The notes beneath the pieces were generated by a model. It did no database searches. It worked only from the letters and a program-made list of their open reading frames with translations, and was not told the origin of the DNA. Positions 912 through 50,952 of a stretch of 64,000 bases of DNA are shown here, in pieces. Every line of letters starts with the position of its first letter. The stretch's first letter is position 1. Source of the stretch: Acidocella sp. (lineage in GTDB: Bacteria > Pseudomonadota > Alphaproteobacteria > Acetobacterales > Acetobacteraceae); contig JAQNCT010000006.1 of the NCBI GenBank assembly GCA_029077825.1, positions 17,298 to 81,297 of the forward strand, given 5' to 3'. Made by a program: the position numbers and the translations under genes.

Positions 912-2041
912 CTCAACGCCGCCATGGCGGTGGCAGCCAGATATCGCGCGGCGATGGGCAAAATAGCGTCGTTATAATCAAAATGCGGGTTATGCAGCCC
1001 GGCGGAATTTCCGTTGCCGATCCAGGCATAGGCACCTGGAATTTCCAGCAGAAACCGGCCAAAATCCTCAGCGCCCATGGTGGGGGCCATATCCCGCCGC
1101 ACAGTGAGCCCCTGCCCAGCCGCCGCCGCGGCGGCAAAGTCAGCTTGGGGTTTATGGTTCACGGTGGGCGGCAGGTAGCCGAAAATCTCAACCGTCGCGG
1201 TAAGGCCAAAAGCGGCAGCGGTATGGGCCGCAACCTCACGGATACGCGCCTCGATCTGCGCCATCACCGGCAGCTTCAACGCCCGGAAAGTGCCGCCGAT
1301 GCTCGCCGTATCGGGTATTTGGTTATTGGCGTTGCCGGCTTGCAGCTTGCAGGTGGAAATAACCGCCGTTTCCAGCGGGTCAATGTTGCGGGCTACCACA
1401 GCATTCAATGCGATAATCAAATGTGCCGCCCCTTGCACCGGGTCTGCCCCCAGATGCGGCATGGCGGCATGGGCGGCGTTGCCATGCAGCCTCACCGTGA
1501 AGTTGGTGGCTGCCGCCATCATGGGGCCATCGTGGATCATCACCGAGCCAGTCTCGAGGCCCGGCCAATTATGGTAGCCAAAAATCCGCTCCATCGGGAA
1601 TTTTTGTAACAAACCGTCTTTCAGCATCGCCTCGGCACCGCCAAAGCCTTCCTCCGCGGGCTGAAATACCAGCTGCACGGTACCGGACCAGTCAGCATCC
1701 TCCATCAATAATTTGGCCGCCCCCAATAATGAGGCGGTGTGGCCGTCATGCCCGCAGGCATGCATCACGCCAGGGTTTTTTGAGGTATAGGGCGCATTGG
1801 TAGCTTCCATAATGGGCAGCGCATCCATGTCAGCCCGCAAACCAACCGAGCGATTAGAGCCCGGGCGCGTTAACGTGGCAACCACGCCGTGGCCGCCGAT
1901 ATGTGGTGTGAACGGGATGCCAAGCTTTGCCAGCTCCTGGCAAACAAATGCCGCCGTGGCCGATTCATGCAACGAAAGCTCCGGGTTGGCATGCAGATGA
2001 TGCCGCCAATGACGCAAAATAGTCACAAAATCCAAGGGCAT
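908..2041 (-). CDS. M20 family amidohydrolase (hippurate hydrolase / N-acyl-L-amino acid amidohydrolase-like)
   Basis: 'RRHLHANPELS'-like start, 'GLRADMDALPI', 'MHACGHDGHTA', 'MGAEDFGRFL' motifs; overlaps recO start by 4 nt. Confidence 0.9.
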   Translation of the reverse strand: MPLDFVTILRHWRHHLHANPELSLHESATAAFVCQELAKLGIPFTPHIGGHGVVATLTRPGSNRSVGLRADMDALPIMEATNAPYTSKNPGVMHACGHDGHTASLLGAAKLLMEDADWSGTVQLVFQPAEEGFGGAEAMLKDGLLQKFPMERIFGYHNWPGLETGSVMIHDGPMMAAATNFTVRLHGNAAHAAMPHLGADPVQGAAHLIIALNAVVARNIDPLETAVISTCKLQAGNANNQIPDTASIGGTFRALKLPVMAQIEARIREVAAHTAAAFGLTATVEIFGYLPPTVNHKPQADFAAAAAAGQGLTVRRDMAPTMGAEDFGRFLLEIPGAYAWIGNGNSAGLHNPHFDYNDAILPIAARYLAATAMAALR

Positions 2042-2218
2042 TTAAAAAACCTTATCAAGTTACGCGGCAACGAATGAGGCAGCTTGGTTGCATACACCAT
2101 TATGGGAAAGATTCATTTAGTTACAAAGCGCCACATTCACGCCACCAACATATAACCATGTCGTGACATATAAACTGGGTTTTAAATTTGGTTTGATTTT
2201 CACAAAATGGAGTTTTTC

Positions 2219-2473
2219 ATGCATCACTTGTCACGTTCCAACATTCGTAAATTTGTGTTTGCCGTTGGCTTTATGGTGGTTGGCGGCCTAACCACCGGCA
2301 CCGCCATGGCCTATCAGGGCCACATGTTCAACGCCATGCACGCCTTACAGAACGCCCGCCAGGAATTACTGGCAGCCGCCCCCAATAAAGGCGGTTACCG
2401 TGACCGCGCTATCGACTTGGTGAACCAGGCCATTGCAACGGTACATGAAGGCATCGAAGTCGGCGCCCACTAA
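2219..2473 (+). CDS. small secreted/periplasmic uncharacterised protein (84 aa)
   Basis: ORF-track ORF 2207..2473; GGAG at 2209-2212 spaced 6 nt from ATG at 2219; N-terminal signal peptide (FVFAVGFMVVGGLTTGTAMA) then 'MFNAMHALQNARQELLAAAPNKGGYRDRAIDLVNQAIATVHEGIE'. Confidence 0.75.
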   Translation: MHHLSRSNIRKFVFAVGFMVVGGLTTGTAMAYQGHMFNAMHALQNARQELLAAAPNKGGYRDRAIDLVNQAIATVHEGIEVGAH

Positions 2474-3186
2474 AACGGCGCTTGCGCAGCCGCGATATAG
2501 TTGATCGCCGTATCGCGGCTGATGCGAAAACTTAAATGCCTGGTATCGAAGCTCAAGCCCGCAACATCCGCGAGGCGCAAGCCAGCACTTCGGCATAATC
2601 CACCGAGTTCCACCGGGGTGATGAACTGCCGCCAGTCATGAGTGCCCACCGGCAGCATCCGCAGCAAATATTCCGCACCGAATTTTGCCACCATATAGGC
2701 CCGCTTCGTGCGGTTAAGCGTTGAGATGAACAACAAGCCGCCTGGTTCCAGCAACTCGGCCAGGGTAGCCAGAAAGGCTGCCGGGTCCGCCACATGCTCA
2801 ATAACCTCTAGAGCGGTGATGACCGGGAATTTAATGCCTTCGGCCAGTAGCTCCTCAGCCGTTCCGGTGCGGTATGCCAGGCTGTAGCCCCGGCCAATGG
2901 CGTGAGCTCGGGCGGCCTCAATGGCATTGGGAGCGGCATCCAGGCCTAGTACATCGCAGCCGGCTTTAGCCAGCGCCTCCGAGAGCAACCCCGCCCCGCA
3001 GCCAATATCCAGCACCCGCACGCCGGGGTTGAATTGCTTAAACACGCGCGCCAGTACCCAGCCGGCCCGCACCGGGTTCATCATGTGCAACGGCCGCATC
3101 GGGCCGGTTGGCTCCCACCAGTTCGCCGCCAGCGCGTCAAACCGGGCGATTTCGTCTGCTTTGGCTGAACTTTCGATGGCCATCAT
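2470..3186 (-). CDS. ubiG: bifunctional 2-polyprenyl-6-hydroxyphenol methylase / 3-demethylubiquinol 3-O-methyltransferase
   Basis: 'EIARFDALAANWWEPTGPMRPLHMMNPVR', 'VLDIGCGAGLLSEALA', 'HDWRQFITP'. Confidence 0.95.
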   Translation of the reverse strand: MMAIESSAKADEIARFDALAANWWEPTGPMRPLHMMNPVRAGWVLARVFKQFNPGVRVLDIGCGAGLLSEALAKAGCDVLGLDAAPNAIEAARAHAIGRGYSLAYRTGTAEELLAEGIKFPVITALEVIEHVADPAAFLATLAELLEPGGLLFISTLNRTKRAYMVAKFGAEYLLRMLPVGTHDWRQFITPVELGGLCRSAGLRLADVAGLSFDTRHLSFRISRDTAINYIAAAQAPF

Positions 3187-3269
3187 TGCGGAACCCCTTT
3201 ACCACCGTTATGTGACGCTCCGACCTGAATTGCACAAGCTTCGGGCAGTCTTGGAGCAGTAAATACCAA

Positions 3270-4484
3270 ATGGCGCGCATAGTAATGAAATTCGGCGGCA
3301 CCTCCGTCGCCGACCTGGACCGTATCCGCAACGTGGCAACCCGTGTGCAGCGCGAGGTGGCGGCTGGCCATGAGGTGGCCGTGGTGGTCTCCGCTATGGC
3401 CGGCACCACCAACCAGCTTGTGGCGTGGTGCCAAGGGCTCTCACCGATGTTTGATGCCCGCGAATATGACACTGTTGTAGCCACCGGGGAGCAGGTCACC
3501 GCCGGGCTGCTGGCGATTGCATTGCAAAATCTCGGTCTGGAAGCGCGTTCGTGGATGGGCTGGCAGATTGCGGTGGATACTGACGGTCAGCATGGCAAAG
3601 CCCGGATTAACGACATTGAGGGCGAGGAACTGATCACGCGCATGCAGGCCGGGCAAATTCCGGTGGTGGCGGGTTTTCAGGGCATTGGGCCGGATAACCG
3701 CATCACCACACTGGGCCGTGGTGGGTCAGATACCTCCGCCGTAGCCCTGGCTGCAGCCTTAAAAGCTGACCGGTGTGACATTTATACCGACGTGGACGGC
3801 GTTTACACGACCGACCCGCGGATTGTGGCAAAGGCCAGGAAACTGGATAAAATCACCTACGAGGAGATGCTTGAGCTCGCTTCGGTGGGTGCCAAGGTGC
3901 TCCAGACCCGCTCGGTTGAGCTGGCGATGAAGGAAAAAGTTCGGGTGCAGGTGCTCTCCAGTTTTGTGGAGGCACCGGGAACTCTGGTAGTTGATGAGGA
4001 TGAGATTGTGGAACAGGAAATTGTCGCTGGCATTGCTTACTCACGAGATGAAGCCAAGGTCACGGTCCGCCGGGTGCCTGATAAACCTGGCATCGCCGCG
4101 GCGATTTTTGTGCCGCTCGCCGAGGCTGGCATCAATGTTGACATGATCGTGCAAAACGTCTCGGCGGATGGCACCACCGACATGACGTTCACGGTTGGCA
4201 AAACTGATCTGGTGCAGGCGCTGGCCAGCCTTGACGGTGTGAAAAACGCCATTGGCTATGCTGAGATTAGCACCGACAAAGATGTTGCTAAAATCTCAGT
4301 GGTTGGTGTGGGAATGCGCAGCCATGCGGGTGTGGCGGGCACCATGTTTAAAACCCTGGCGGAAAAGGGCATAAACATCTTGGTCATTTCAACCAGCGAG
4401 ATCAAGGTCAGCGTGTTGATCGCTGCTGAATACACCGAACTCGCGGTGCGTGCGCTGCATACGGCTTACGGATTGGACGCCTGA
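3270..4484 (+). CDS. lysC: aspartate kinase (alpha-type with two C-terminal ACT domains)
   Basis: 'MARIVMKFGGTSVADLDRIRNVA', 'TLGRGGSDTSAVALAAALKADRCDIYTDVDGVYTTDPR'. Confidence 0.97.
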   Translation: MARIVMKFGGTSVADLDRIRNVATRVQREVAAGHEVAVVVSAMAGTTNQLVAWCQGLSPMFDAREYDTVVATGEQVTAGLLAIALQNLGLEARSWMGWQIAVDTDGQHGKARINDIEGEELITRMQAGQIPVVAGFQGIGPDNRITTLGRGGSDTSAVALAAALKADRCDIYTDVDGVYTTDPRIVAKARKLDKITYEEMLELASVGAKVLQTRSVELAMKEKVRVQVLSSFVEAPGTLVVDEDEIVEQEIVAGIAYSRDEAKVTVRRVPDKPGIAAAIFVPLAEAGINVDMIVQNVSADGTTDMTFTVGKTDLVQALASLDGVKNAIGYAEISTDKDVAKISVVGVGMRSHAGVAGTMFKTLAEKGINILVISTSEIKVSVLIAAEYTELAVRALHTAYGLDA

Positions 4485-4485
4485 C

Positions 4486-5535
4486 ATGAACATAACCCCG
4501 GCGGCGAAATTTGCGGCGTTGCAGGCGCGCGGCGCTGAATTCCTCGGCACCGAAATGGCGATCATGGGCGGGGCGATGAGCTGGGTGTCGGAGCGTCATC
4601 TGGTCGCTGCCATCTCAAACGCGGGTGGCTTTGGTGTGATTGCCTGTGGCTCAATGCCGCCTTCGCTGCTGGAAGCCGAAATCACCGCCACCCAGGCGCT
4701 GACCGACAAGCCATTTGGTGTGAACCTCATCACCATGCACCCGCAACTTGATGAATTGGTGCAGGTTTGTCTGCGGGCCAAGGTTGGCCATATTGTATTG
4801 GCTGGTGGCATTCCCCCCGGCCCCGCTGTGCGGGCGGTGAAGGATGGCGGTGCGAAGCTGATTGCGTTTGCCCCGGCGTTGGTTTTGGCAAAACGGTTCG
4901 TAAAATCCGGCGTCGATGCGCTGGTGATTGAAGGCTCGGAGGCCGGGGGACATATTGGCCCGGTATCGCTCACCGTTTTGGCGCAGGAGATTTTGCCGCA
5001 TATTCAGGACATTCCGGTGTTTGTGGCCGGTGGGCTGGGGCGTGGCGAAGCCATTTTGGGGTATCTCGAAATGGGCGCGTCCGGCGCGCAATTGGGTACG
5101 CGGTTTGCGGCCTCGGTTGAGAGCATCGCCCACGCTAATTTTAAAAACGCCTTTGTTCGCGCCAATGCCCGCGATGCGTTACCTTCAATCCAACTCGATG
5201 AGCGTTTTCCAGTCATCCCCGTGCGCGGGCTGGTGAATGAAGGCACCAAGCGGTTCCTGACGCATCAGGCCGAGACACTGAAGAAATTTCAGGCTGGTGA
5301 GTTGGATAAAACCCAGGCGCAGTTGGCCATTGAACATTTCTGGGCCGGTGCGCTGCGGCGGGCGGTGGTTGATGGTGATATTGAAAATGGCTCGGTAATG
5401 GCCGGGCAATCGGTCGGGATGGTGACGTCGATACAAACAGTTGCGGAAGTTTTGCAAGAATTAAAGGCGCAAGCGGTTGCGGCATTGGCGGCACGAGAAC
5501 AAACTCGGGGCTATGCTGAAACCGCCGTCGCCTGA
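4486..5535 (+). CDS. nitronate monooxygenase / 2-nitropropane dioxygenase-like flavoprotein
   Basis: ORF-track ORF 4450..5535; ATG at 4486 directly after lysC is the more likely start; 'GVNLI', 'VIEGSEAGGHIGP', 'VFVAGGLGRGEAI', 'MGASGAQLGTRF'. Confidence 0.85.
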   Translation: MNITPAAKFAALQARGAEFLGTEMAIMGGAMSWVSERHLVAAISNAGGFGVIACGSMPPSLLEAEITATQALTDKPFGVNLITMHPQLDELVQVCLRAKVGHIVLAGGIPPGPAVRAVKDGGAKLIAFAPALVLAKRFVKSGVDALVIEGSEAGGHIGPVSLTVLAQEILPHIQDIPVFVAGGLGRGEAILGYLEMGASGAQLGTRFAASVESIAHANFKNAFVRANARDALPSIQLDERFPVIPVRGLVNEGTKRFLTHQAETLKKFQAGELDKTQAQLAIEHFWAGALRRAVVDGDIENGSVMAGQSVGMVTSIQTVAEVLQELKAQAVAALAAREQTRGYAETAVA

Positions 5536-42520: not shown

Positions 42521-43923
42521 GCGGGCAAGCCATATTAAGCAGTGAAGAGCCGCTGAAGCCGGGCCAGCAACGCGTCGCGCTGTCTGATGTTATTTCGCAA
42601 ATCTCCAGCATGGAGCAGCAAAACCGGCTGGACGAGGCAGAAAATCTGGCAAGCCGCGTGCTGGCGGCGGTACCTGAGCACCCGCATGTGCTGCATCTAT
42701 CCGGCATCGTTTTATATCGTAAGGGCAAAATTGATGAGGCTATCGCGCGGATGGAAAAATCCATCGCGCTGGCGCCCAACGTGGCGCTGTATCCGCGCAA
42801 TATGTGTGAAATTTATCGTGGCGCAGGGCGGCTGGATGACGCGGTGGCCTCAGGCAAGCGGGCGATTGAACTGGCGCCGGATGACAGCCGGGCCTATTTC
42901 AATCTGGCGCTGATCCATTACGAGCGCCTCGAGCTTGAAGAGTCGGTGCGGATTTGCGACCGCGCCCTGGCGCTCGACCCGAATTTTGCAGAAGCGCATT
43001 TTGAACGAGCCGAGGCGTTGCTGCTGGGTGGCAATATGGCCGAAGGCTGGGAGAGCTACGAATGGCGCTTCAAGCTGAAACAGGCCGAGGGCATGTTGCC
43101 CAAAACCGACAAGCCACAATGGGATGGCACGCCCCTGCCCGCCGGCAAGTTGCTGCTGGTGGCGGACCAGGGGTTTGGTGATTGCATCCAGTTTGGCCGG
43201 TTGATCCCTTGGGCGGCCAAAATCGCGCCAGCCCCGGTGCTGGCCTGCAGCGGCGATTTGACACCGATTCTACGGCAGATCCCGGGCATTGGACGGATGG
43301 TGACACGCTGGGAGCTGACCGGCGATTTTGATGCCTATATCCCGCTGTCAGGCCTGCCACGCCTGGCCAAAATTGCCCCCGGCAACGTGCCGTTGGGCGA
43401 AGGCTACCTAACCCCGAACCCCGAGCTGGTAGCACATTGGGGAGCACAGCTGGACCGGTTGGTGCCAAAGGGCAAGCGACGCATCGCGCTGGTCTGGGCA
43501 GGTCGTCCGACCCACAAGAACGACAAGAAGCGCACCCTGAAACTGGCGCAATTCGCGCCACTGCTGGCGCGTGAGGATATCGCGGTAGTGACCGTGCAGA
43601 AAGGCGAGCAGATTACTCAGGTAGGCAGCTATTACGGCAACGCCCCCCTTATTAATCTGGGCCCTGATATTGCGGATTTTGCCGACACCATGGCGATTTT
43701 GAAGAATGTTGAGCGGCTGGTCACCATTGATACCTCAGTGGCGCATGTGGCGGGCGCCTGCGGCATACCGGCTTCCATTGTGCTGCCCTATGCGCCTGAC
43801 TGGCGCTGGCTGCTGGGGCGCGATGACACGCCTTGGTACCAGTCAGTCAGGCTGTTCCGCCAGCAGCGGCCCTATGAGTGGGGCGATGTCATGGAGCGGG
43901 TGGCGCGATCTCTCGACACGTGA
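42517..43923 (+). CDS. TPR protein with glycosyltransferase (GT9/GT41-like) C-terminal domain
   Basis: TPR units 'GIVLYRKGKIDEAIARMEKSIALAPN', C-terminal 'IALVWAGRPTHKNDKKRTLKLAQFAPLL', 'LVTIDTSVAHVAGACGIPASIVLPYAPDWRWLLGRDDTPWYQSVRLFRQ'; start taken at Met 42517, overlapping the upstream gene. Confidence 0.87.
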   Translation: MSGQAILSSEEPLKPGQQRVALSDVISQISSMEQQNRLDEAENLASRVLAAVPEHPHVLHLSGIVLYRKGKIDEAIARMEKSIALAPNVALYPRNMCEIYRGAGRLDDAVASGKRAIELAPDDSRAYFNLALIHYERLELEESVRICDRALALDPNFAEAHFERAEALLLGGNMAEGWESYEWRFKLKQAEGMLPKTDKPQWDGTPLPAGKLLLVADQGFGDCIQFGRLIPWAAKIAPAPVLACSGDLTPILRQIPGIGRMVTRWELTGDFDAYIPLSGLPRLAKIAPGNVPLGEGYLTPNPELVAHWGAQLDRLVPKGKRRIALVWAGRPTHKNDKKRTLKLAQFAPLLAREDIAVVTVQKGEQITQVGSYYGNAPLINLGPDIADFADTMAILKNVERLVTIDTSVAHVAGACGIPASIVLPYAPDWRWLLGRDDTPWYQSVRLFRQQRPYEWGDVMERVARSLDT

Positions 43924-44201: not shown

Positions 44202-45557
44202 TTAGACCAACCGCAGCATACTGATCAGGGCGGACACGCCGGCAAATCCAGCACCTACGTCCAGCGCAACAACCGCCCCGTGGTTGCCAAGCTTAGCCAA
44301 AATCAAAGCGGCCAGCGCAGCACCTGTTGCCTGGCCAAGCAGGCGCGATGTGGCAATGGTGCCGCTGGCAGCACCACTGCGCGGCTTGGGAGCGGAGGTC
44401 ATGATCGTGCGATTATTCGGCGGTTGAAAAAACCCAAATCCGAAGCCGCACAGCATCATACGCCATATAACATTGGCATAGCCGGGGTGCGGCGGGAGAT
44501 GGCTGAGCAGAAGCAGCCCGGCGGCAAGCACGCTGATCCCTAAAAAATTCAAAATCGCCGCCTGGTAACGGTCTGCCAAATGGCCGGAAATGTTGGTGAC
44601 AAGCGCAATGGTCAGCGGCCATGCCATGATCAGCAGACCCGTCTCAGTAACGTTAAAGCCCAGAATGGTTTCAAAGTAGAAAGGTAGCGACACCAGCGCC
44701 AACATTTGCGCGGTAAAGCATGAGATCGACGTGCCAACCGACAGTGCAAATAGCGGGCGGCGCAATAAATCCACCGGCAGCAAAGGGGCCGGATCTGGCA
44801 GTTGCCTGAGCACTGACCAGGTGATGGCGATGATGCCCGTCAGTATTTCGGCCAGTGACAAAACCAAAGGTTCCGCATGGCTGAAGCTTTGGATGGTGGT
44901 GATCAGCATGGCGAAGGCAATGGCGGTGAGAACCGCGCTGAGAGCATCGAAGCGGCGCTTCACCAGATCGGTGGCCGGCAAATTGCGATAGCCCATTACC
45001 AACGAGATAATGCCCAGCGGCAAGTTGATGATGAACAGCCATTGCCAGGACGCGAAGCTCAACACGATACCGGCAAAACTTGGTCCCATGGTGGAGCCAA
45101 CCGCCACAACCATGGAATTGAGGCCGATGCCCCGGCCCAATTGGCTATGCGGAAAAATATACCGGATCAGTGCGGTATTTACGCTCATGATGCCCGCCGC
45201 GCCAACGCCCTGCACAATGCGCGCGATGGTGAGGGTGGTGATGGAGTTAGCCAGCACACAACCCAGCGAGGCGAAAATGAAAACCACAATGCCGGTCAGA
45301 TACACCACCCGGTAGCCAAAGATTTCCGCCAACGCCGCAAGCGGCAGAATTAGCATGACGATTGCCAACTGATAGGCGCTGACGATAGCGACTGAATCAG
45401 TTGGCGTGGCGTGAAGATCAGTAGCGATGGTAGGCAGAGCGACATTCGCAACGGTCTGATCCATGACCGTTAAAATGACCGTGATAAGCACTGCCGCCAG
45501 GGCAAGGGTTCTTTGCGGCTTTGGCAAACCGTCTGCGTATATCAGCCTGTCCGCCAC
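44202..45557 (-). CDS. MFS transporter, DHA2 (EmrB/QacA-like) type
   Basis: 'TVILTVMDQTVANVALPTIATDLHATPTDSVAIVSAYQLAIVMLILPLAALAEIFGYR'; ~12 hydrophobic segments. Confidence 0.92.
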   Translation of the reverse strand: MADRLIYADGLPKPQRTLALAAVLITVILTVMDQTVANVALPTIATDLHATPTDSVAIVSAYQLAIVMLILPLAALAEIFGYRVVYLTGIVVFIFASLGCVLANSITTLTIARIVQGVGAAGIMSVNTALIRYIFPHSQLGRGIGLNSMVVAVGSTMGPSFAGIVLSFASWQWLFIINLPLGIISLVMGYRNLPATDLVKRRFDALSAVLTAIAFAMLITTIQSFSHAEPLVLSLAEILTGIIAITWSVLRQLPDPAPLLPVDLLRRPLFALSVGTSISCFTAQMLALVSLPFYFETILGFNVTETGLLIMAWPLTIALVTNISGHLADRYQAAILNFLGISVLAAGLLLLSHLPPHPGYANVIWRMMLCGFGFGFFQPPNNRTIMTSAPKPRSGAASGTIATSRLLGQATGAALAALILAKLGNHGAVVALDVGAGFAGVSALISMLRLV

Positions 45558-45635
45558 CGATGCATGACCTTATCCAAATAGTCTCAATACCGACACCAGG
45601 GTTTAGCGCCCGGCGTAATAACCCTTACAAAATCA

Positions 45636-46991
45636 TCATTGCAGCACACGCATCTTTGCAAGGCCGGTGCCGAGTGCCTTTCCGGTCCAGATGATTGTGA
45701 TTACTGCAAACCCGATGGCGGCAATCGTGAGCGGAATCACCGGCACCAGAAACAAGATGAACACCGAGGCGTGGTGCGCGATGAGTTGCCCGGCCAGCAG
45801 CGGGCCGCTGATGGCACCGATACGGCCAATGGCATGGGCAAATCCAGCGCCACGTGAACGGATGGCGGTAGGGTAGAGCATGCCGGCAAATGAGCTCATA
45901 CCAACCTGAGCACCGAGAATGCTGAAGCCGATCATGAATACCAGAAGATGAATCGTAGCAGGCGCAGTGTCAGGGATACCAATCAAGGTGGTGATGACGC
46001 ATCCAATCGCGGCATAGAGCGCCAGCACGATCGGCCCAATTAAATCAAGCGCCGGGCCGATCAACAACCCGCCAACCACCCCGCCTACATAATACAGCGA
46101 AACCGTATCCGCCGCCTGCGTTTTGGTGAAACCGATATCGTGCAGGACAATGGCCAGCCAGCTATTAACAAAAAAATTCACCAGCATAATCGAAATAAAC
46201 ACCAGCCACAAAAACGGTGTCACGAGCTTTAATTTATCGGCGAACAAGAAGCTGATAGAGAATTTTTTGGCTTTGGTCTCATTCAGGATGAAGGTCACGT
46301 TTTGCGGGATCGCAAGCTCAGGAGCAAGCTTGCCCAGCCATTTGCGAATTTCAGTGTCATTTTTGCGATCAAGCGACAGAAATTTAAGAGATTCCGGTAA
46401 CTTAAAAAACACCAGCGGCAACACGATCATCGGGATAAGGCCACCAACAAAAAACAGCTCATGCCAGTCACCACCGACCAACTGCGCACTAACGATACCC
46501 GGCAAAATGCCGCCAAACGTGATGCCCATGAAAGCATAAGTGGTAAAAGCCGCACGAATTTTTTTCGGCAAAAACTCCGCCATCATGGCGGTGACGTTCG
46601 GCAGCAAACCACCAAGGCCAAGGCCGGTCGCGAATCGCAGCCAAAGCAATGAGGTGAAATCAGGGGCGAATCCACAGCCGAAGCTGGCGATGCCGATGAT
46701 GAAACAGGCGATGATGATACCGCGCTTGCGGCCAAAACGGTCGCCGTAAATGCCGCTGGTGAGAGCACCGACCAGCATGCCGAGCAGTGCTGCACTAAAC
46801 ACCGGAGCCATGGCAGAGCGCACCATGTGAAAACTGGACACAATACCTGGGGCCGCCAGACCAACAACGCCAAGGTCATAACCATCTGAAAGCATGGCGA
46901 GGAAGCAGATGAAGAAGATCAGCATTGTGAACCGGCGAACCGGCAGATTATCAATAACCGTACCGATATTAAAACTATTTTCAGTGTCCAT
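45636..46991 (-). CDS. MFS transporter, aromatic acid:H+ symporter (AAHS)-like
   Basis: 'FFICFLAMLSDGYDLGVVGLAAPGIVSSF', 'GIYGDRFGRKRGIIIACFIIGIASFGCGFAPDFTSLLWLRFATGLGLGGLLPNVTAMMAEFLPKKIRA', 'YPTAIRSRGAGFAHAIGRIGAISGPLLAGQL'. Confidence 0.9.
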   Translation of the reverse strand: MDTENSFNIGTVIDNLPVRRFTMLIFFICFLAMLSDGYDLGVVGLAAPGIVSSFHMVRSAMAPVFSAALLGMLVGALTSGIYGDRFGRKRGIIIACFIIGIASFGCGFAPDFTSLLWLRFATGLGLGGLLPNVTAMMAEFLPKKIRAAFTTYAFMGITFGGILPGIVSAQLVGGDWHELFFVGGLIPMIVLPLVFFKLPESLKFLSLDRKNDTEIRKWLGKLAPELAIPQNVTFILNETKAKKFSISFLFADKLKLVTPFLWLVFISIMLVNFFVNSWLAIVLHDIGFTKTQAADTVSLYYVGGVVGGLLIGPALDLIGPIVLALYAAIGCVITTLIGIPDTAPATIHLLVFMIGFSILGAQVGMSSFAGMLYPTAIRSRGAGFAHAIGRIGAISGPLLAGQLIAHHASVFILFLVPVIPLTIAAIGFAVITIIWTGKALGTGLAKMRVLQ

Positions 46992-47012
46992 TTTCGTCCC
47001 TCAAGTATATTA

Positions 47013-48548
47013 TTAGTGGTTTGTGGTCTCGTACTTGCTGTGCCCGACCGCATTCGAGCCAGGAAAAATCAGGGATTTGACAACCACCGGCACCGAACCG
47101 GACCCTTCAAGCATTTTCCCAATATCGATGAAATCGAATTTTTTTGAAATAATACCATCAATCGAAACGACCTTGCCACGCGTATGCAGCTCTTCGGCAA
47201 AATGCAAGCCGATCAAGCCACCAATATCGCAGTCGCCCACCAGAATCAGCGGTTGGGCATTGGCAATCTGGCAGGCAAAGCCAGCCGCAACGCCACGGCA
47301 AAAGGCTTCAAGGCGTACGAATGTGGCAGAGCCTTGCCATGAATAGCCAAGGGCAAAGGCCTGTGTGGCATCGATAACACCCGAGGTTGCGATGGCACGG
47401 GTAATATCCGCGGCAATCGCTTCAGCGTTGATATCACCGTTTAGCAGGGAAGGTGTCAGCATGATGGTGGGCACGTTGCGCAACGGCAGGAAATCAAGAT
47501 CGGAGACAAAAATCGTCGAGCCGCTGACCTGCACGGTATATTGCGATGCGCCAATGACCGTAGCGCGAATGCCTTGGGCGACGGGCACCACCTCGGGTCC
47601 CCACGATTTAACCTTCCGGGCGATATTCTGCGCCAACCGTAAGCCGAGGTCGCCATGGTCGGTGCTGGCGCGCTGATAGACATATTCAGAGACACCGCCT
47701 GAAAAAGTTATGAATGATGGACGGGCCGAGGGTGTAAGTGGCGCTAAACGCAACAGGCCTGAGACCGGCTGGCTTACCACACCAGCTTTGATGGCTTCCA
47801 TGAGATGATCGGTCATCACATCGGCCATGGTGTCGAGGTCAGCCGCACTTACAACAGCGCCTATGGTCAGCATGATCCCGCAAGCCTCGGCGATTTTGCG
47901 TCCCGCCGGTTCCAACCGGGTAAGCCGACCAGCCTCATCAATAGCGATCAACCGCGCGCCAATGTCGATGGCGGTAAACTCCCGCACCTCACCTTTGTAA
48001 CAGCGGGCGAGCTTGGTGGTGCCACCGCCGATATCGATGTTCAACACGTCATGCGCAGCGTTGACCGACAAAGCCACGCCACCCGCGCCATGGGCGGCGA
48101 GGATCGCTTCCATGCCATCACCGGCGCTGATTGAGACGAATTTTCCAGCCGCCTTGGCAAAAATATCTGCGATGGCGCGGGCATTGTTACGCCACACCGC
48201 CGTGCCAGTCAGGATCAGAGCGCCGGTGTCGATCGTATCGAAATCAATGTTGGCGCGTTGATACTGTGCTTCGAAAAAATTTTTGAGTGCGGCGGTATCA
48301 ATGTCGTTTTCCCCGACATAGGGGGTGAGAAGAATTGCTGATTCAAATAAAACTTCGCGTTGAGCGACAATATAATGCGAGTCAACCCGCTCCAGCGTGA
48401 TGCGGGAAAATGCCAGATGCGTGGTGGAGGAGCCGATGTCGATGCCGACGCTGACAATCTGGATTTCATCTTCATCGACAATGCTGCGCCGGGCATTGGT
48501 GAAAAACAACCGGCCGCCGACAGGGTTATCCATCGGCGCACACGGCAT
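47013..48548 (-). CDS. EutA-like protein (ethanolamine ammonia-lyase reactivating factor family, ASKHA ATPase)
   Basis: 'VSVGIDIGSSTTHLAFSRITLERV', 'TIDTGALILTGTAVWRNNARAIADIFAKAAGKFVSISAGDGMEAILAAHGAGGVALS', 'VLNIDIGGGTTKLARCYKGEVREFTAIDIGARLI' resemble EutA. Confidence 0.85.
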   Translation of the reverse strand: MPCAPMDNPVGGRLFFTNARRSIVDEDEIQIVSVGIDIGSSTTHLAFSRITLERVDSHYIVAQREVLFESAILLTPYVGENDIDTAALKNFFEAQYQRANIDFDTIDTGALILTGTAVWRNNARAIADIFAKAAGKFVSISAGDGMEAILAAHGAGGVALSVNAAHDVLNIDIGGGTTKLARCYKGEVREFTAIDIGARLIAIDEAGRLTRLEPAGRKIAEACGIMLTIGAVVSAADLDTMADVMTDHLMEAIKAGVVSQPVSGLLRLAPLTPSARPSFITFSGGVSEYVYQRASTDHGDLGLRLAQNIARKVKSWGPEVVPVAQGIRATVIGASQYTVQVSGSTIFVSDLDFLPLRNVPTIMLTPSLLNGDINAEAIAADITRAIATSGVIDATQAFALGYSWQGSATFVRLEAFCRGVAAGFACQIANAQPLILVGDCDIGGLIGLHFAEELHTRGKVVSIDGIISKKFDFIDIGKMLEGSGSVPVVVKSLIFPGSNAVGHSKYETTNH

Positions 48549-48579
48549 TTTTACGAAAACAAGCCTTCACGCCCAAAGC

Positions 48580-49782
48580 CTAGACCGGCTTTTCGTAAAG
48601 CTTCGGATCCATCCGGCACACTACCCCTTCTTCCTTCAAACGCGCTTCATATTCCTGCCGGATGAAGGGATCTTCCTGCCAGTACGCAATCGCGCTGCCG
48701 CCATCTTGCAATTCCATTGCGGTATAGTCGGTGTGGGGCGCGCCCGGCGGGCCTGGGTCGCGGCCTGGCGAGTGCGGGCCGAACCAGGCGGTAAGGCGGA
48801 ATGGCTCTTTTGAGACACTGAAGTGCTGATGATACCAGCGCGCACCACCGGGAGCGGCTGTCACCATGCCGCCGGCTTCATAATCCAGGCGCCGCACTTC
48901 AGAGCCCTTGCCGTCTTTCCAGGGGGTCGGGCCCAGACGCTCCGGCCAGGTATAGGTGTAGCCTTTGCCTTTCACGCAGATCAGCACAGCAGCGGATGTG
49001 TGGGCATGAGCTTTGGAATAACGGCCATTTTCATGCTGGCCGATCCAAAGATAAAAACTGTTATTGGTCATGAAGGGCTCAACACGGCGATAACCGGGCG
49101 AGCGGCGATTATCGAGCGGCAGATCGCAATTGACGGCATCGGGCACCAGGTTCGTACGGCGCATCGCCAAGCCACGCACCGGATCGGGTTCGATGTCATC
49201 GCGCGGCTTATAGAAGTTATCATCTTCGCTGAAGCGGTCTTTAAAAACATAAGGATTGTTGAAAACGGCTTCGATGTTATTGAGCGCGTTGATCACCACC
49301 GGCGCTGTGGTACCGCCGAGCAGCAAGGCGGGTGCGGATGAGCCGTTGACGATACGATGCATTGCATTCATCGGAATCGAGAACATTGAGCCTTGCTGCC
49401 ATTCAAAAATATGCCGCTTAGACTCAGTCTCGAGCCAAACTTCGGTGGTGCCGCGGCCTTCCAGCACAAGGTAGATTTCTTCGTACATGTGTTTTTCAGG
49501 GTGCAGTGCGCCCGAGCCTGGTACTTCAACCACATAACAGCCCCATTTCCCTTCAGTACCGAACAACTGAACATATGAGCCGCGGCCGCCGGTGCGTTTC
49601 CAGGGTAAGAGCGGTAGGTTTTGTGCTTTATTGATACCCAATTCGCGGAACACCGGAATGCCCTCGCCTGCCATGAATTCATCATATGGCGTGGCAAGTT
49701 TTTTAAACGTGCCGTATCCAGCTTTGGCAACCTCGCCGGTGGGTTCGTGCCAATGTTGTTGGCCAGTGACGTCATGCGGCAT
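48580..49782 (-). CDS. cupin (bicupin) domain protein, possible dioxygenase or regulator
   Basis: First cupin 'GCYVVEVPGSGALHPEKHMYEEIYLVLEGRGTTEVWLE...SMFSIPMNAMHRIVNGS'; second region 'YSKAHAHTSAAVLICVKGKGYTYTWP...GGMVTAAPGGARWYHQHFS'. Confidence 0.82.
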   Translation of the reverse strand: MPHDVTGQQHWHEPTGEVAKAGYGTFKKLATPYDEFMAGEGIPVFRELGINKAQNLPLLPWKRTGGRGSYVQLFGTEGKWGCYVVEVPGSGALHPEKHMYEEIYLVLEGRGTTEVWLETESKRHIFEWQQGSMFSIPMNAMHRIVNGSSAPALLLGGTTAPVVINALNNIEAVFNNPYVFKDRFSEDDNFYKPRDDIEPDPVRGLAMRRTNLVPDAVNCDLPLDNRRSPGYRRVEPFMTNNSFYLWIGQHENGRYSKAHAHTSAAVLICVKGKGYTYTWPERLGPTPWKDGKGSEVRRLDYEAGGMVTAAPGGARWYHQHFSVSKEPFRLTAWFGPHSPGRDPGPPGAPHTDYTAMELQDGGSAIAYWQEDPFIRQEYEARLKEEGVVCRMDPKLYEKPV

Positions 49783-50084: not shown

Positions 50085-50158
50085 TGGAGGTCCGGGCCGG
50101 AATCGAACCGGCATACGCGGATTTGCAGTCCGCTACATCACCACTCTGCCACCGGACC
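50085..50158 (-). tRNA. tRNA-Cys (anticodon GCA)
   Basis: Minus strand GGTCCGG-TGGCAGAGTGGTGATGTA-GCGGACTGCAAATCCGC-GTATGCCGGTTCGATTCCGGCCCGGACC-TCCA. Confidence 0.95.
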
Positions 50159-50289: not shown

Positions 50290-50952
50290 ATGACCGAATT
50301 TTCCTCCGACACCGCCATTGCACGCGCCCATATGGTCGATAGCCAGGTTCGGCCCAATCGGGTGAATGACACGCGGGTCATCACCGCAATGCGGAATTTG
50401 CCGCGCGAGGCCTTTGCACCAGCCGGCAGCAAGCCCTACGCCGATGCTCCCATTGCGCTGGAAGGCGGGCGGCAAATGATGCCGCCACTTTTAATTGCGC
50501 GGCTAACCCAACTGGTTTTGGCCCCCAGCCCGGCGCATATTTTGGTAATCGGCGCTGGCACTGGCTATAGCGCCGCGATTTTGGCCAGCAGTGGGGCTGC
50601 GGTCACCGCGCTAGAATTTCCGGCCATTGCCAGCCCCGGCCCGGTGCCTGTGAATGTTACCATGGTCACCGGGCCGCTAACCGCCGGTTGGCCGGCGGCT
50701 GGCCCGTATGAAGCCATTTTGATTGAAGGGGCCGTACCGGAAATCCCTGAGACACTGGCATCGCAACTCACGCCGGACGGTAAGGTGATTGCTATTTTAA
50801 CCGATAAAACCGCCAATGGCGGCAATTTGACATCTCTCGGGCAGGTGGTGGTCGCGCAGCGAAGCAGTGGCGGCTTTGCCATAACCACGATGTTCGACTG
50901 CACCGCGCCTAGCCTGCCGGCCTTCAAACCGGCACCCGCCTTCGTTTTTTAA
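50290..50952 (+). CDS. pcm: protein-L-isoaspartate O-methyltransferase family protein
   Basis: 'ARAHMVDSQVRPNRVNDTRVITAMRNLPREAFAPAG', 'LVIGAGTGYSAAILA'. Confidence 0.87.
   Translation: MTEFSSDTAIARAHMVDSQVRPNRVNDTRVITAMRNLPREAFAPAGSKPYADAPIALEGGRQMMPPLLIARLTQLVLAPSPAHILVIGAGTGYSAAILASSGAAVTALEFPAIASPGPVPVNVTMVTGPLTAGWPAAGPYEAILIEGAVPEIPETLASQLTPDGKVIAILTDKTANGGNLTSLGQVVVAQRSSGGFAITTMFDCTAPSLPAFKPAPAFVF

Follow-up and report, generated by a model that had tools for sequence, protein, structure and literature searches.

Which enzyme does a EutA-like ATPase serve when it is encoded beside a cupin instead of an ammonia-lyase? The question is raised by a 64,000-nucleotide stretch of the Acidocella sp. 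genome (assembly GCA_029077825.1, contig JAQNCT010000006.1, positions 17,298 to 81,297), referred to here as the window, which is part of contig C28 in a genome of 2.55 Mb. In it, the gene for a two-domain cupin (bicupin) of 400 amino acids (48580..49782, minus strand) is followed on the same strand by that for a EutA-like protein of 511 amino acids (47013..48548). EutA is known to reactivate its lyase at the expense of ATP, by clearing out cofactor that has been damaged (PMC5821096). An earlier note on this DNA supposed that the EutA-like protein either maintains a different enzyme, possibly the bicupin, or serves a distant ethanolamine ammonia-lyase (EutBC). Comparison across genomes shows the cupin and EutA-like genes to be fixed partners in many proteobacteria. 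We put at roughly 50% the probability that the EutA-like protein is a dedicated ATPase of the ASKHA superfamily, which loads or reactivates the metal site of the bicupin in aromatic catabolism.

A fixed partnership of cupin and EutA-like genes

A scan of GTDB genomes with an alignment of seven bicupin sequences returned at least 582 relatives, of which the best 80 loci were kept (58 from Alpha-, 19 from Beta- and 2 from Gammaproteobacteria). These are the closest matches and not a random sample, and neighbourhood counts are biased towards the window-type pair (type A) over a paralogous type represented by a copy on contig C101 of the same genome (type B). Genes were called by tblastn and a codon-usage caller, the AT-rich locus L134 being read by plain open reading frames (ORFs). 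Among the 75 type-A bicupins with room downstream, 59 are followed on the same strand by a EutA-like gene less than 400 nt away; in seven more it lies up to 3.5 kb away, in one further still, and in eight there is none.

The converse search, for PF06277 in 385 alphaproteobacterial genomes, gave 11 positives (E ≤ 1e-20), usually with two to four copies each. At 21 of the 27 EutA loci outside this genome a bicupin lies within 1.5 kb, and EutB adjoins none of them. A UbiD-type decarboxylase adjoins the EutA-like gene at four (L134, L135, L138, L139), where a small cupin is also near, as is a decarboxylase-like protein; this suggests UbiD as a second partner type for this ATPase group. At the other two (L136 and L137, one on a short contig) neither cupin, UbiD nor EutB was seen nearby. 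Pairwise distances among cupins and among EutA-like proteins are correlated (r = 0.906 across 39 non-redundant pairs; 0.773 when only type A is taken), a level reached in none of 2,000 permutations. Shared descent contributes to this correlation, which therefore demonstrates stable pairing and not contact. The association expected for the EutA-like protein, with the bicupin and not with EutBC, thus held across three proteobacterial classes.

Of the three full-length PF06277 genes in this genome, one is that of the window and two lie on contig C101, where they alternate with cupins in the order IclR regulator, EutA-like gene (3142-4791), bicupin (1964-3097), EutA-like gene (392-1891) and a cupin truncated by the contig end. 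The contig also holds a TctA permease, an alcohol dehydrogenase, an HpcH aldolase and an amidohydrolase. Two of its proteins, read by eye, appear related to 4,5-dihydroxyphthalate decarboxylase, and a homologue has a sub-threshold NMT1/THI5 match only.

The catabolic character that the earlier note proposed is supported by the wider neighbourhood. Among the 50 loci spanning 15 kb or more, the genes met most often near the pair encode a Rieske oxygenase whose C-terminus is LigXa-like (22), IclR (22), a Rieske ferredoxin (21) and a decarboxylase-like protein (16), followed by a flavin reductase (15), a peptidase-like hydrolase (15), a class II aldolase (14) and Amidohydro_2 (9). One or two extra small cupins occur in about a fifth of them. 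In genome G526, LigAB and an RraA aldolase are encoded near the EutA-like locus, and transporters vary between TctABC, ABC types and, in Acidocella, the major facilitator superfamily (MFS). Taken together, these neighbours suggest that aromatic acids are taken up and degraded. At L029, L055, L067, L101 and other loci, small cupins (about 184 and 192 amino acids) and a 135-amino-acid protein run beside the type-B bicupin; neither the 135-residue family nor another neighbour family of 169 residues has a Pfam match.

Metal ligands, histidine tails and nickel genes

Pfam recognises Cupin_2/Cupin_1 domains in the window bicupin, weakly yet above cut-off, and NCBIfam gave no match. Single window proteins found nothing in the PDB by phmmer; profile searches did, the bicupin profile remotely matching gentisate dioxygenase 3bu7 (2.1e-7). 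The AlphaFold2 model (predicted local distance difference test, pLDDT, 87) resembles oxalate decarboxylase, MncA and quercetinase at a template modelling (TM) score of about 0.45. Model, Pfam and alignment agree on two cupin domains with conserved metal ligands, as in bicupin metalloenzymes. The first domain retains E96, H98, E102 and H142, of which H98 is present in all type-A bicupins and replaced by Gln or Met in type B. The second retains H259, H261, H318, Q319 and H320; across 140 homologues H318 and Q319 are invariant and the other three are kept in more than 95%. Its usual glutamate ligand has given way to Val or Ile in type A and to His in type B. This pattern of conservation leads us to assign the main metal site provisionally to the second domain.

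The EutA-like protein matches PF06277 over positions 2-474 of 475 (373 bits, 2.5e-111). Its phosphate 1, phosphate 2 and adenosine motifs are those of the ASKHA ATPase superfamily, with G35-x-D37-x-G39-S40, D172-x-GGGTTK (through T177) and SGGV (283-286) intact and invariant. Fifty-six positions are invariant both among these EutA-like proteins and in five true EutA proteins.

Poly-histidine segments occur in 30 of the 43 proteins nearest the C101 type-B copy, at the C-terminus in 28 and at the N-terminus in four. The type-B protein of locus L054 carries HHHHHGHDHGHHHHHGHGHGHHHHHDHDHKH, and the C101 copy ends in HEHNHGHSHGYEHAHHQPHDHTH. For comparison, the tail of the Klebsiella nickel metallochaperone UreE is HGHHHAHHDHHAHSH, and certain UreE proteins have none (PMC7055735).

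Nickel genes often accompany the pair as well. HupE/UreJ, NicO or NikR lies within 10 kb in 21 of the 50 long loci, and a CobW-type GTPase in four others. The protein families were confirmed, with NikR scoring above its NCBIfam cut-off, and the loci are distributed over six or more named alpha- and betaproteobacterial families. The Phyllobacterium zundukense annotation lists cupin and EutA, followed directly by a convergent NixA and by nikR. As a background, the 2.55 Mb of the present genome encode a single NicO, with one NikR-like gene adjoining it, and no HupE, which by rough estimate would correspond to less than 2% per 21-kb window.

A EutA core that has been kept, a partner that is now a metal enzyme and a histidine tail in one branch together suggest that ATP is used to load or renew the metal of the cupin. 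The bicupin would depend on a metal to convert an aromatic acid or the compound formed from it by ring cleavage. Its EutA-like partner would attach to it and, through the ATPase cycle, open it, much as EutA frees damaged cobalamin from its lyase; metal could then enter, or an incorrect or damaged one leave. In type-B pairs the long poly-histidine tail of the ATPase may hold the metal, as in UreE. The metal is most probably nickel, with cobalt or iron possible. The full form of this proposal, in which an ASKHA ATPase inserts or renews nickel in the bicupins of aromatic catabolism, these being a new class of nickel enzyme and the process a new kind of metallocentre maturation, we advance only tentatively, as something that may well prove wrong.

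Several observations count against the proposed metallation role. Gene linkage alone cannot tell an activator from a catalytic subunit. None of 81 type-A proteins, the window copy included, has a histidine tail, and around a few bicupins (L052, L074, L087) the surrounding 10 kb hold no EutA-like gene. Some of the nickel-linked loci are related to one another, seven of them coming from Rhizobiaceae, and 25 of the 50 long loci have neither nickel nor CobW genes within 10 kb. There is also no nickel gene near the window pair; the NikR-like gene of this genome and, divergent from it, a NicO/NixA nickel transporter stand on contig C27 (L147 9040-10709), and a [NiFe]-hydrogenase is encoded on C111. 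Finally, NicO and HupE are able to carry cobalt. A partial urease match on contig C55 (5e-6) was judged to be a related amidohydrolase and set aside. No NiCo riboswitch was found in 14 clusters or in the window cluster.

Alternative roles for the ATPase

The main competitor, which we regard as unlikely though deserving serious consideration, makes the EutA-like protein an ATP-using catalytic subunit that phosphorylates or activates the aromatic substrate, on which the bicupin or, in some clusters, UbiD would then act. ASKHA subunits activate the substrate in enzymes of the acetone carboxylase type, providing a model. Pairing and co-variation suit a complex of subunits equally well, and the presence of one clade of EutA-like genes beside UbiD and a small cupin, in place of a bicupin, fits a shared aromatic-acid chemistry. 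However, the 56 invariant positions are held in common with a reactivase, poly-histidine tails suit metal handling better than kinase activity, and the nickel genes would be left unexplained.

It is highly improbable that the protein belongs to a detached B12 system, reactivating EutBC encoded elsewhere or another cobalamin enzyme. Membership of the EutA family by profile speaks for this, as does the presence in this genome of EutB and EutC on contig C82 (L012 9749-11924), with neither EutA, cupin nor microcompartment genes beside them. The earlier note was correct that the window has neither eutB nor eutC, and the genome search completes that statement. Its suggestion that the protein serves a distant EutBC, however, does not hold in general: of the 26 genomes carrying the cupin/EutA-like system, 18 have no EutB, the single-contig G446 and G526 among them, and as a rule the EutA-like protein is therefore not a detached ethanolamine reactivase.

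The family itself is also divided. All five EutA proteins outside this genome in a phylum-wide sample adjoin EutB, whereas the proteins considered here adjoin cupins. Four of the five score 555-591 bits against PF06277, with an outlier at 229, and cupin-linked proteins score 354-414. The window protein falls under all NCBIfam EutA equivalog cut-offs (324.7 bits, against 598 at best). In a maximum-likelihood tree, a quick one with a single very long outlier (L154), the proteins linked to cupins or UbiD group together, separately from the EutA linked to EutBC (Shimodaira-Hasegawa-like approximate likelihood ratio test, 98-99), and the type-A partners among them make up a separate clade (support 100). 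No B12 enzyme was noticed in the surveyed clusters, and no cobalamin riboswitch was found in the 14 clusters or in that of the window.

More improbable again is ATP-driven electron transfer of the HgdC/BcrD kind, whereby an iron-sulphur cluster in an ASKHA dimer reduces the partner enzyme. The model of the EutA-like protein (pLDDT 81) resembles HgdC, GppA, MreB and EutJ, and its best fold matches are HgdC (1hux), HadI and the ATPase subunit of benzoyl-CoA reductase, at low TM-scores of about 0.3 by query length. Such a cluster needs conserved cysteines, though, and the best columns reach 67% and 53% of 129 EutA-like sequences; with no column above 67%, identity as an HgdC-type activase was rejected. 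Genomic hitch-hiking, in which the genes are kept together with no functional coupling, hardly merits belief, for although the window cassette is an accessory insertion beside a tRNA gene, the pair recurs in three proteobacterial classes, as paralogous pairs and amid differing neighbours.

The Acidocella cassette and comparison with known systems

In the window, the pair is followed on the minus strand by two MFS genes, each encoding 451 amino acids: an AAHS-like transporter (45636..46991) and a DHA2-type transporter with a GTG start (44202..45557). ORF calling recovered all four genes where the earlier note had placed them, with gaps of 31, 21 and 78 nt. The note's identities agree with Pfam, which gives MFS_1 for both transporters; AAHS and DHA2/EmrB are the nearest NCBIfam subfamilies, both scoring under the curated cut-offs. 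The first transporter is a probable importer of an organic or aromatic acid and the second a probable efflux protein. Two other Acidocella genomes (L026, L027) carry these four genes in unchanged order, 82-95% identical in sequence, so the cassette is no artefact of a single assembly.

In a further congener (G068), a gene matching the window gene that ends at 43923 is directly followed by tRNA-Cys (50085..50158, minus strand, in the window) and a methyltransferase-like gene (window 50290-50952), with no further sizeable gene between them. With the site empty there and occupied in the two other Acidocella, the cassette has been inserted at a site bounded by a tRNA. A promoter and terminator scan did no better than shuffles, and operon structure consequently rests solely on spacing and strand. 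Treating the four genes as one system, as had been assumed, is not supported: the AAHS-like gene accompanies the pair in Acidocella, the DHA2-type gene there and in some Acetobacteraceae, the two together only in Acidocella and partly in near relatives. Judged by locus comparison, the core of the system is the cupin and the EutA-like ATPase, and the MFS genes are a local addition.

No description of EutA with a cupin, nickel, Rieske protein or transporter was found in the open-access literature searched. Nearly all PF06277 genes in the alphaproteobacterial sample go with cupins, and members of this group are annotated as 'ethanolamine ammonia-lyase reactivating factor EutA' (e.g., in Phyllobacterium zundukense), which misdirects metabolic reconstruction. 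Were the metallation reading true, ATP-dependent reactivation by the EutA fold would extend beyond B12 enzymes; cupins, usually thought to acquire their metal unaided, could require a dedicated ATPase; and hundreds of uncharacterised aromatic-breakdown clusters would be marked with a probable metal requirement.

Among known systems, LigX-type O-demethylation and protocatechuate 4,5-cleavage (LigAB) share with the related clusters the Rieske oxygenase with LigXa_C, ferredoxin, reductase, Amidohydro_2, RraA aldolase and LigAB. To our knowledge, the known forms of these pathways include neither the EutA-like ATPase nor the bicupin pair. A riboflavin catabolic cluster also has Rieske and cupin genes, with EutA and nickel unmentioned (PMC12746152). 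The bicupin has two cupin domains and HxH...H ligands in common with gentisate 1,2-dioxygenase and bicupins akin to it (3bu7) and, by fold, with oxalate decarboxylase, MncA and quercetinase; it differs in its invariant HQHF motif and in a second domain without the usual glutamate ligand. Type-B EutA-like proteins resemble the nickel metallochaperones UreE, HypB and SlyD in their C-terminal histidine-rich tails and in the nickel uptake and NikR genes nearby, whereas the fold, that of an ASKHA ATPase, is unrelated to UreE, to the G3E GTPase HypB and to the FKBP-type SlyD, and the window copy is tailless. With EutA the window protein shares full-length homology at about 31-36% identity and the ATPase motifs, while proteins of its type stand in a separate clade, have a cupin in place of EutBC as partner and in some members carry poly-histidine tails.

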